From an uncultured SAR86 cluster bacterium (GTDB taxonomy: Bacteria > Pseudomonadota > Gammaproteobacteria > Magnimaribacterales > AG-339-G14), in the NCBI GenBank assembly GCA_949373255.1, contig CASICS010000015.1, positions 1 through 33,125 on the forward strand: a stretch of 33,125 bases of DNA. Direction: 5' to 3'. Numbering within the stretch: the first letter of the stretch is position 1; every line of letters starts with the position of its first letter. Under the pieces are notes generated by a model. That model worked only from the letters and a program-made list of their open reading frames with translations. It was not told the DNA's origin and did no database searches. Made by a program: the position numbers and the translations under genes. Below are positions 2,339-8,107 of this stretch, in pieces.

Positions 2339-4771
2339 ATGCGATTAAAAAATATAAGTCTTTCCGGTTTTAAATCATTCGTTGATCCCACGAAGATAGT
2401 CTTCCCTAGTGCCATGTCAGGTGTTGTAGGTCCAAATGGATGCGGTAAGTCAAATATTATCGACGCAGTACGTTGGGTTATGGGAGAAATTTCTGCAAAA
2501 AATCTTAGAGGTGACTCTATGGCAGATGTTATTTTTAATGGGTCATCTTCTAGAGCGCCATCAAGCAGGGCATCAGTAGAACTGCTTTTTGATAATAGTG
2601 AGGGCAGGATAGGCGGAGAATATTCTTCTTATTCAGAAATTTCAGTAAAAAGAGTATTGGACTTAGATGGAAAGTCTTCTTATTTACTAAATGGTACAGA
2701 GTGCAGGAGAAAAGATATTACTGATATATTTCTAGGAACAGGTTTAGGACCCAGAAGTTATGCTGTCATTGAACAAGAAATGGCAACCAAATTGATTAGT
2801 TCAAAGCCAGAAGAACTAAGGGCTTATATTGAAGAAGTTGCCGGAATTTCAATTTACAGAGAAAGAAAAAAAGAAACTGAATCTAGAATAAAGAAAACAA
2901 GAGAAAACCTTAATAGAGTTGCTGATATTAGAGATGAAATAGATAGGCTCTTAGTAAAATTAAAACAGCAAGTAAAATCAGCTGAAAAATATAGTCTTCT
3001 AAAAAGCGAAGAAAAGAAATTTAATGCTTTCTTGAAGGCATTCAGTTGGCAATCTAGAAGTGAAGCAGCTGCAAAATTAGATCTTGATGTAAAACAGATC
3101 GAATTAGAGATTGAAAAATTAAGAACTGCAAAACAGTCTACTACTAGCTCAATTGACTTGGTAAGAACTAAACAGAGCGACACTCAATCTGAAATAGATA
3201 AAATTCAAGAAGAGTTTTATTCTAGTGGCGCAAATCTCTCAAAATCTGAACAAGAATTAGTTTATTTAAAAGAAAAAAAGAATGAACTTAATTCTGAAAT
3301 ACTGGCTTATTCAGAAAACATATCAAATATTGCCAATAATAAATCTTCTTTAGAGGCAGAATTAATTAGTCTAAATGCATCTCTCTTAGAAAAAGAACCT
3401 TTACTTGAAAAAATGGATGCATCTATATCTAAACTTGATGGAGCCATGTCACCTGATTTTGTTTTGAAGCAAATATTTAATGAGCAAGCAAACTTAAAAA
3501 CAGATTTAATAGATTTCAAAAATAATTTTGCTCTTAAATCTAATTCTGATTTAAATCCAATAATTGAATCGTTAGAAAAACTCGAGCTAAAGCTAAATCA
3601 AATGCAAACATGTCTTGATAAACAAGAAGATATACAAGAAGAGAAGTTTCTAGCTCAAAAAAATGACTTATTAGCTTTAAGTGGTCAAATAACCTCTTTA
3701 AAAGTAGGTATTGCAAAAATATCAAGCGATCTTAATTCTTATAATCTTCAAGAAAAGAACTTGCTGAACTCAAAGAAAGCTTGCGAAGACCAACTCGAAT
3801 CTCTTACAAAACCAATTTCTAATTTGGAAATTGAAATGAAGCCTTTATTGGATTCAAGATCTAGTGTCGAAGAAACGCTTACTCTCAAAAGACAAGAATA
3901 TGCTCAAATGTCAGAAGAAATAAGATTAAACGAAAGAAAGTCTCATGAATTGGATCTCTCTATAGAAAGCATAAGATCAAATTCTCAAGATTCAATGGTA
4001 AAGAGACAAGGATATATATCTGAAGCCGAAATTTACCTAAAGCAACTAGAGCAAGATAACTATAAAATCGATGAATTATTAGACGAATTAGATGTTGAAA
4101 CTTCTGAAAATAACTTAATAGAAGAAATAGCAAAAATTGAAGCCTCTATTTCAAGAATTGGTCCAATTAATTTAGCCGCTGCTGAAGAGTTTAAAATTGA
4201 GGAGGAGCGTAAAGAAGAAATTAATTCTCAATTTGAAGAGTTAGAAAGAGCATTAATGACTCTTCAAAATGCAATTAAAAAAATAGATCTTGAATCAAAA
4301 ACTAAATTTAAAGACACTTTGGATCAATTGAATATCAAAGTTAGCGAATTATTTCCTAAGTTATTTGGCGGAGGCTTTGCTAAATTAGAACTAACGAGTG
4401 AAGACTTGCTTGAAGCGGGGGTGGTTTTTAGAGCGATGCCTCCCGGCAAGAAAAATGTAAATGTATCTCAATTATCAGGAGGTGAAAAAGCTTTATCAGC
4501 TATATCTTTAGTATTTTCTTTCTTTTCTTTGAATCCAGCTCCTTTTTGCATTTTAGATGAAATCGATGCTCCTTTAGACGACTTTAATACTTCAAGATTT
4601 ATAAACATGGTTGAGGAGATGTCCACTAAAGTTCAGTTTATATTTGTGACGCATAATAAAATTTCTATGGAAAAAAGTAAGCATTTATTAGGCGTTACTA
4701 TGCAAGAACCAGGTGTTTCAAGACTTGTAACAGTAGATGTAGATGAAGCTATAAAGCTCGCAGCGATTTAA
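2339..4771 (+). CDS. smc: Chromosome segregation ATPase SMC, short form without recognisable hinge
   Basis: SMC-family ATPase expected to organise and segregate the chromosome. N-terminal head with Walker A GPNGCGKSN (31-39). C-terminal head with ABC signature LSGGEKALS (712-720), Walker B and D-loop in FCILDEIDAPLDD (736-748), and H-loop FVTHNK. All ATPase motifs look intact. Between the heads, about residues 205-600 are charged coiled coil. At 810 residues it is far shorter than usual bacterial SMC (about 1150-1200). I cannot find the roughly 130-residue globular hinge, nor a Rad50-like CxxC zinc hook. The only break in the coil is a short stretch around 366-410 (GAMSPDF and NP). Gene order smc-zipA-ligA matches other gammaproteobacteria such as Pseudomonas, which supports the name. 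zipA starts on the last base of the smc stop codon. Confidence 0.9.
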   Translation: MRLKNISLSGFKSFVDPTKIVFPSAMSGVVGPNGCGKSNIIDAVRWVMGEISAKNLRGDSMADVIFNGSSSRAPSSRASVELLFDNSEGRIGGEYSSYSEISVKRVLDLDGKSSYLLNGTECRRKDITDIFLGTGLGPRSYAVIEQEMATKLISSKPEELRAYIEEVAGISIYRERKKETESRIKKTRENLNRVADIRDEIDRLLVKLKQQVKSAEKYSLLKSEEKKFNAFLKAFSWQSRSEAAAKLDLDVKQIELEIEKLRTAKQSTTSSIDLVRTKQSDTQSEIDKIQEEFYSSGANLSKSEQELVYLKEKKNELNSEILAYSENISNIANNKSSLEAELISLNASLLEKEPLLEKMDASISKLDGAMSPDFVLKQIFNEQANLKTDLIDFKNNFALKSNSDLNPIIESLEKLELKLNQMQTCLDKQEDIQEEKFLAQKNDLLALSGQITSLKVGIAKISSDLNSYNLQEKNLLNSKKACEDQLESLTKPISNLEIEMKPLLDSRSSVEETLTLKRQEYAQMSEEIRLNERKSHELDLSIESIRSNSQDSMVKRQGYISEAEIYLKQLEQDNYKIDELLDELDVETSENNLIEEIAKIEASISRIGPINLAAAEEFKIEEERKEEINSQFEELERALMTLQNAIKKIDLESKTKFKDTLDQLNIKVSELFPKLFGGGFAKLELTSEDLLEAGVVFRAMPPGKKNVNVSQLSGGEKALSAISLVFSFFSLNPAPFCILDEIDAPLDDFNTSRFINMVEEMSTKVQFIFVTHNKISMEKSKHLLGVTMQEPGVSRLVTVDVDEAIKLAAI

Positions 4772-5451
4772 TGATTATTTATGAAATTTTAGTTTTGTTT
4801 TTAGGATTAGTAATTGCGATTACCTTCGTACTAATGCTGCGTAAATTATTCTTTGGATCATCAGCCAAGATAAAAATTGATAAAAAAGTCAATTCTAGAG
4901 AGCTATTTGAACCAGTCGGAACTGCTGAATTAAATATCCCGTTGGATGATATGGAGGCTAAAGCATTCATTGAAGAAGAAAAAAAATCTGATGATATTAA
5001 TCATAGTTCCGACGATGATTATGATTTACACACTGAGCCAAAAAATGAAATTATATCGATTCACTTAGAAAATTCTTCAGATGCTAAATTTACATACAAG
5101 GCATTAACTGAATTTTTAAATTCGAGTAATTTTAATTTCTCAGATGATGGGGGTTGGTTCAAAATTTATATCGATTCTGAAGATTCTTTTTTACTTGTTA
5201 ATGGACTGAATCCAGGTAAGTTTATCCCTGAAGAGGAGATAATAGATTCACCCGTCATGACATTAATTTACACATTAAATTCTAATTCAAATTCGGTAAG
5301 TGCATTCTCTCAATTAATAAACTTTGCTCAGCTTTTAGCAGAAAACTTTAATAGTAAAATTTTAGATGCCGAAAGGAATATTTTGACTCAACAGATGGTT
5401 GAGCATTATTCTCAAATTGCTGAAGAATTTGATTTATCTAATCTAACTTAA
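4771..5451 (+). CDS. zipA: Cell division protein ZipA
   Basis: Bitopic inner-membrane protein that tethers FtsZ filaments and stabilises the Z ring. One N-terminal membrane segment (about residues 3-25) is followed by a short acidic linker (about 60-90). The C-terminal FtsZ-binding domain contains GLNPGKFIP and SPVMTLIYTL, then a closing helix pair with LDAERNILTQQMVEHY, matching the ZipA pattern 'xxxPGxFxP...TPGxTxFM...LDxxRxxxTxQxxxxY'. The linker is short (226 residues in all). It starts on the last base of the smc stop and lies six bases before ligA, the usual gammaproteobacterial neighbourhood. Confidence 0.88.
   Translation: MIIYEILVLFLGLVIAITFVLMLRKLFFGSSAKIKIDKKVNSRELFEPVGTAELNIPLDDMEAKAFIEEEKKSDDINHSSDDDYDLHTEPKNEIISIHLENSSDAKFTYKALTEFLNSSNFNFSDDGGWFKIYIDSEDSFLLVNGLNPGKFIPEEEIIDSPVMTLIYTLNSNSNSVSAFSQLINFAQLLAENFNSKILDAERNILTQQMVEHYSQIAEEFDLSNLT

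Positions 5452-8107
<2,656 letters not shown>

Follow-up and report, generated by a model that had tools for sequence, protein, structure and literature searches.

As far as the available sections of Burmann et al. (2017; PMC5344682) go, B. subtilis grows normally in rich medium when the hinge of Smc is replaced by the zinc hook of Rad50, the Smc arms are functional only at certain lengths, and the authors consider the fold of the dimerisation domain irrelevant for segregation in this bacterium. The reverse swap is functional in fission yeast Rad50, according to the accessible part of PMC6969161. 'Hinge-less' SMC proteins without CxxC have been reported in marine Actinobacteria by Sussfeld et al. 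(2025; PMC12153180), with no hinged copy alongside in the genomes that its authors screened; the main text, in the portion at hand, contains no mention of SAR86, Gammaproteobacteria or ScpA. A literature search limited to titles and abstracts of open-licence papers did not find, among the papers listed, hinge loss in SAR86 or SAR11.

Bacteria of the SAR86 cluster are very abundant and free-living in the ocean. The window, i.e. the whole stretch of DNA analysed here (33,125 nucleotides of contig CASICS010000015.1, assembly GCA_949373255.1, from an uncultured SAR86 cluster bacterium), contains at 2339..4771 on the + strand an smc gene for a hingeless Smc of 810 amino acids (hereafter P0001), as indicated by its open reading frame, profile matches and relatives. 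An earlier note on this DNA had described a protein of this length with intact ATPase head motifs, and both observations were borne out: P0001 contains Walker A (residues 31-39), LRG (56-58), the LSGGE signature (712-716), Walker B (737-743) and THNK (771-774). On the basis of the AlphaFold2 model and of these motifs, the N-terminal half of the head spans residues 1-170 (2339..2848, + strand, with Walker A at 2429-2455), and the neck and the C-terminal half of the head lie at 4178..4768 (+ strand, with LSGGE at 4472-4486 and Walker B at 4547-4567). Walker A, the signature and Walker B were each present in 67 of 68 distinct SAR86 sequences, two of which are cut and lack one end. The closest named contigs (63-87% identity) belong to uncultured SAR86 cluster bacteria. 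When the AlphaFold2 model was compared to the PDB with Foldseek, the top hit was 5xei (Smc head plus coiled coil). Full-length subunits of Smc5/6 and condensin ranked next, with low TM-scores, ahead of further Smc heads (5h68, 5xns and 5xg3, among others).

P0001 matched TIGR02168 (SMC_prok_B, an NCBIfam equivalog) with 783 bits as compared to a cut-off of 567, in two stretches, the best of which aligns residues 2-475 with positions 1-468 of the 1181 of the profile. SMC_prok_A, under its own cut-off, aligned its positions 739-1164 with residues 382-800. The hingeless head-coil-head outline resembles that of Rad50, and P0001 might have been a paralogue or one of the SMC-like repair proteins (Rad50/SbcC or archaeal ASRP), the true Smc being encoded elsewhere in the genome. 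However, among the models listed only SMC_prok_B passed its cut-off; the Rad50 equivalog gave at best 56.1 bits vs. 1087 and the archaeal ASRP model NF045487 gave 67.6 vs. 300, so that neither criterion was met. Moreover, CxxC was found in none of the 68 SAR86 sequences (nor in the 20 alphaproteobacterial sequences described below), which indicates that there is no zinc hook. The source genome (928 kb, 77% complete) gave a single Smc match, and among the 61 genomes of the SAR86 order that were searched (four families, source included) 58 gave a match and none a second smc gene, the paired matches seen in families f3 and f4 being two pieces of one gene. In view of these results, of the position of the protein inside gammaproteobacterial Smc and of a locus that is mostly canonical (see below), a paralogue or a member of the Rad50 or ASRP groups was rejected as very improbable. 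In the counts for the motifs and CxxC identical rows were counted once (68 SAR86, 20 alphaproteobacterial and 60 gammaproteobacterial sequences); these counts omit L044 (a fragment), L159 (the same gene as L160) and the gammaproteobacterial fragments with a hinge L045, L097 and L100.

No match to the Pfam hinge model was found in P0001, and none of 199 genomes of the SAR86 order matched PF06470. In Proteobacteria, however, this model has low sensitivity: Caulobacter, one of the controls, went undetected, and the model was under cut-off or absent in two (L046 and L108) of the five hinged gammaproteobacterial Smc scanned. For this reason PF06470 was rejected as the sole test for a hinge, and gammaproteobacterial and alphaproteobacterial hinge models were built. 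The gammaproteobacterial HMM, trained on 30 sequences, recovered all 30 hinged Smc that had been held out (E ≤ 8.4e-21). Of the 73 SAR86 rows covering the apex it matched none (best E 0.77), these being 74 rows minus L044, which stops short of the apex; L045, L097 and L100, which are not SAR86 and do have the hinge, scored high. A genome search with the gammaproteobacterial hinge alignment gave no match in 28 SAR86 genomes and a match in 16 of 16 gammaproteobacterial controls, chosen among genomes with an Smc match; therefore, a hinge encoded separately was likewise not found in SAR86. The statement that the hinge is not recognisable is thus supported by PF06470 as well as by a model validated on controls. 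A hinge domain of about 130-155 residues is a criterion of bacterial condensin Smc that SAR86 Smc does not meet.

The 60 hinged gammaproteobacterial Smc measure 1140-1184 aa. Uncut SAR86 genes encode 809-810 aa in f1, 821-827 in f2, 727-732 in f3 and 733-736 in f4; L024, L035, L044 and L144 are cut by contig ends, and the start of L152 (759 aa) is uncertain. A longer Smc of 995 aa occurs in genus g10 of f3 (L141 and L142). These two proteins were considered as hinged survivors and rejected, as they gave no hinge match and have duplicated arms instead: both arms are tandemly repeated around a single apex, with 34 of 106 residues identical between 231-336 and 351-456 in the N-terminal arm of L141, and 46 of 143 between 517-659 and 660-802 in its C-terminal arm.

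The gene length in relatives, a check proposed in the earlier note, indicates that P0001 is not aberrant. Since all four sampled SAR86 families have the short form, an internal deletion peculiar to this sequence, the alternative considered there, is excluded. An assembly or sequencing artefact, that is, an in-frame deletion in the source genome alone, could be suspected in a contig that is possibly not error-free, given that the adjoining ligA is frameshifted, but the same architecture occurs in 68 distinct SAR86 sequences from other assemblies and from the source. The relatives refute this reading, which was rejected as practically negligible.

The AlphaFold2 monomer of P0001 (mean pLDDT 80.5) shows the heads, a single helix at residues 171-363 forming the N-terminal arm (2849..3427, + strand), a loop, a helix at 373-396, a second loop at 397-405 and a helix starting at 406; the C-terminal arm comprises residues 406-607 (3554..4159, + strand). 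The apex, which on the basis of the model and of hydrophobicity windows takes the place of the hinge and of the distal arms, corresponds to residues 364-405 (3428..3553, + strand). It is predicted with less confidence than any other part of P0001, the pLDDT around it being only about 53-65. The break in the coiled coil previously placed at about 366-410 is close to the predicted loop, helix and loop. The model of L037, a relative of 732 aa, has the same layout (pLDDT 78.0), with a short apex helix at 343-360. Compared to Alloalcanivorax Smc (L048), residues 1-357 of P0001 align with 1-357 and residues 418-810 with 780-1168, so that residues ~358-779 of L048, including the hinge and both distal arms, correspond to about 60 residues in P0001. 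Some 120-140 residues have gone from each arm along with the hinge, and a short helix-loop-helix apex lacking a zinc hook occupies their place. The arms had been described as about half the usual length; they are indeed shorter, but not by half, the N-terminal arm measuring 193 residues as compared to ~330 in hinged relatives, which is nearer 60%. The latter value is an estimate from the hinge boundaries used for the gammaproteobacterial HMM. An informal comparison of the arm lengths with the modes in PMC5344682, for which only part of that paper was available, gave an outcome that shifts with the placement of the apex start.

Downstream of smc lie zipA (4771..5451, + strand; Pfam ZipA_C and gene order) and ligA (5458..7513, + strand), the latter in two reading frames in the assembly. 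The frameshift at about 6020-6040 may be an assembly error or a real lesion, and the data do not distinguish between the two. In the order, ligA was found downstream of smc in 28 of 39 loci, as compared to 56 of 58 gammaproteobacterial loci; a SAR86 locus was counted only if more than 1.5 kb of sequence followed it (L031-L110 and L131-L157 were used, L001-L030 left out). The 11 loci where ligA was not found beside smc are all from f3 (e.g. L037-L041 and L139-L146) and keep ccmF and ccmH upstream of smc; in f1, f2 and f4 ligA does lie beside smc. A search of the source genome for scpA and scpB, also suggested in the earlier note, found both; the two genes overlap and lie on another contig. Across the order, ScpA and ScpB were each detected in 55 of 61 genomes (28 of 29 at ≥90% completeness); each was missing in 6 of the 61, and many genomes are incomplete. 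The criterion of a kleisin (ScpA) and a kite protein (ScpB) for bacterial condensin Smc is therefore met. Three genomes of f2 (G040, G043 and G046) have a second, weak ScpB-like match under the family cut-off, the open frame being 178-183 aa long. All 28 SAR86 genomes contain a ParB-type protein matching TIGR00180; this match is no proof of a chromosomal loader, because ParB-like proteins of the E. coli control match as well. That the order has retained a ParB-type protein along with ScpA and ScpB, and that ligA adjoins smc in three of four families, indicates that the condensin gene was remodelled in place.

In a tree built on the heads only (44 rows, quick method, SH-aLRT supports), SAR86 formed a single clade (99) inside Gammaproteobacteria (100). 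The remodelling probably occurred once, in the ancestor of the SAR86 order. A survey of the class, with a match in 337 of 369 genomes, gave no hingeless Smc outside SAR86 among the matches listed; eight short gammaproteobacterial open frames were considered as further cases and rejected, since they are cut by contig ends and have the hinge. A survey of the phylum (398 genomes, 263 with a match) gave, among the matches listed, one other end-to-end match, G557, an alphaproteobacterial complete genome of 1.2 Mb with an Smc of 809 aa. Around G557 (families f87 and f92) 58 of 61 genomes gave an Smc match, and 20 genes from f87 encode 798-858 aa; this range covers f87 only, and other open frames reach 891 aa. 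By eye, the apex of L167, L171 and L179 (857-858 aa) is longer than in those members of the family that measure 798-814 aa.

In leave-one-out tests the alphaproteobacterial hinge HMM recovered 7 of 7 alphaproteobacterial Smc; it also recovered 57 of 60 gammaproteobacterial Smc, and matched none of the 21 rows (20 genes) of the G557 group. The hingeless claim for this group rests on that model, because the gammaproteobacterial one finds only 1 of 10 alphaproteobacterial controls and is an unfair test there. In the group, ScpA was found in 31 of 37 genomes and all 18 genomes searched for a ParB-type protein have one; G557 itself has scpA and scpB as a pair. The best matches of its Smc in a plasmid collection were Smc of Azospirillum, Sinorhizobium and Shinella. 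Judging from genome size and from a 16S signature, the group is probably SAR11/Pelagibacterales. Of 20 genomes of the group, 5 (from two genera, G557 not among them) contain the target of a SAR11 16S probe, which we take to be a marker of this identity, as compared to 0 of 26 others; where inspected (L195), this target sits in the SSU rRNA gene.

In the head-only tree the G557 group formed a single clade (100) with alphaproteobacterial Smc (100). A single clade of SAR86 and the G557 group was rejected (p-AU 1.5e-44), so that two changes are needed. As the two groups separate in the head trees, hingeless Smc arose at least twice. What the single sequence could not show is that the trait is common to the order and recurs in an unrelated alphaproteobacterial lineage.

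We somewhat favour the interpretation that P0001 is a genuine chromosomal Smc, working in an Smc-ScpAB condensin joined through the small apex; dimerisation at the apex, ring formation, loading by ParB and chromosome segregation in SAR86 are inferred. The ancestor of the order would have lost the hinge and the distal parts of both arms, a helix-loop-helix apex being substituted for them. Two Smc might then be joined at the apex by packing of hydrophobic helical hairpins, e.g. as a four-helix bundle, head engagement would be driven by ATP, ScpA and ScpB would complete the ring on the side of the head and neck, and the complex may be loaded by ParB near the origin. Among the possibilities raised in the earlier note (a mini-hinge, the coil itself or a different way of working), the small helical apex seems the best backed, although dimerisation itself is not shown. 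To our knowledge, characterised Smc, MukB and Rad50 all dimerise apically. This counts against an open condensin in which the apex never dimerises and the Smc pair is held only by ScpA, from neck to cap, and by the ATP-driven heads. Such an arrangement is somewhat unlikely, though it would agree with the retained kleisin and with an apex that is short, predicted with low confidence and different in sequence from one SAR86 family to another, and which for the latter reason may be a mere connecting turn. A bare turn, however, would not need the observed hydrophobicity. In each SAR86 family the apex helices are more hydrophobic than nearly all other arm windows (percentile 99.5 in f1, 99.7 in its genus g4, 99.2 in f2, 98.3 in f3 and 97.7 in f4), and helix 373-396 of P0001 falls in one of the most hydrophobic windows; the three alphaproteobacterial sets gave 98.7, 95.9 and 93.1. 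In this analysis the apex range was chosen by the analyst and the maximum of several windows was taken. The swaps that work in B. subtilis and, in reverse, in fission yeast, as described in the available parts of PMC5344682 and PMC6969161, make a small helical dimeriser in SAR86 plausible.

A conservation peak was observed beside the apex. Residues 441-460 of P0001, with a mean pairwise identity of 0.74, are the top f1 window between 221 and 600, and the patch at 431-460 (3629..3718, + strand), delimited by window identity, is an inferred candidate interface. The corresponding peak ranks first in the alphaproteobacterial set of 809 aa as well, is local and not the highest in f2 and in the other alphaproteobacterial sets, and is small in f3 and f4; genus g4 of f1 is too uniform to be informative. 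This peak counts in favour of a junction at the apex. Being most distinct in f1 and in a single alphaproteobacterial group, it would also fit a pair zipped along its coiled-coil arms into a rod, with the apex as a passive cap, and the accessible text of PMC5344682 mentions that the arms of B. subtilis Smc associate with each other. Yet the hydrophobic content of the arms is lower outside the apex and no dimer model supports such a rod, which we consider decidedly unlikely.

Both the SAR86 and the probable SAR11 lineages keep ScpA and ParB-type proteins. That these two and the marine Actinobacteria of the literature, the latter judged from part of the source only, became hingeless independently, and that some condensins lack an apical Smc-Smc junction, is an unlikely combination; if true, neither the hinge nor a closed Smc ring would be needed for chromosome segregation. 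The separate losses in two proteobacterial classes, taken with the actinobacterial report as far as it could be consulted, point to a common origin of the trend; that genome streamlining is this cause is a possibility, by inference. SAR86 offers a natural test of whether the hinge is truly needed, and bears on the open question of whether it is more than a clamp, i.e. a DNA entry gate, a DNA-binding site or part of the loop-extrusion cycle. Furthermore, structural and single-molecule work could draw on the order for minimal condensins that occur in nature, with about 730-830 residues.

Among known systems, Rad50/SbcC, the partner of Rad50 being Mre11, shares with SAR86 Smc the head, the antiparallel arm and a small apical element, whereas SAR86 Smc has no CxxC zinc hook and ScpAB is present in the genome. 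Archaeal ASRP/ClsN/Sph proteins are likewise SMC-related, with a coiled coil joining the head halves, but most bear a zinc hook, as stated in the available part of PMC9389158, and SAR86 Smc has none. The criteria for hinge-less SMC taken from the accessible section of PMC12153180 (head and coil, no hinge, no CxxC) are met by SAR86 Smc, and both are marine; the actinobacterial proteins belong to another phylum and were presented as AlphaFold monomers, partner proteins being absent from that section. The engineered mini-Smc and zinc-hook Smc of B. subtilis indicate, within what could be consulted of PMC5344682, that permitted short arms and a non-hinge apex can work; they carry a hook of known structure, whereas the SAR86 form is natural and has a helical apex. 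With bacterial condensin Smc (TIGR02168), SAR86 Smc shares the heads and their motifs, ScpA, ScpB, the ParB-type protein, the gene neighbourhood and the phylogenetic position, and differs from it in having no hinge, arms that we estimate to be about 40% shorter, and a small helical apex.
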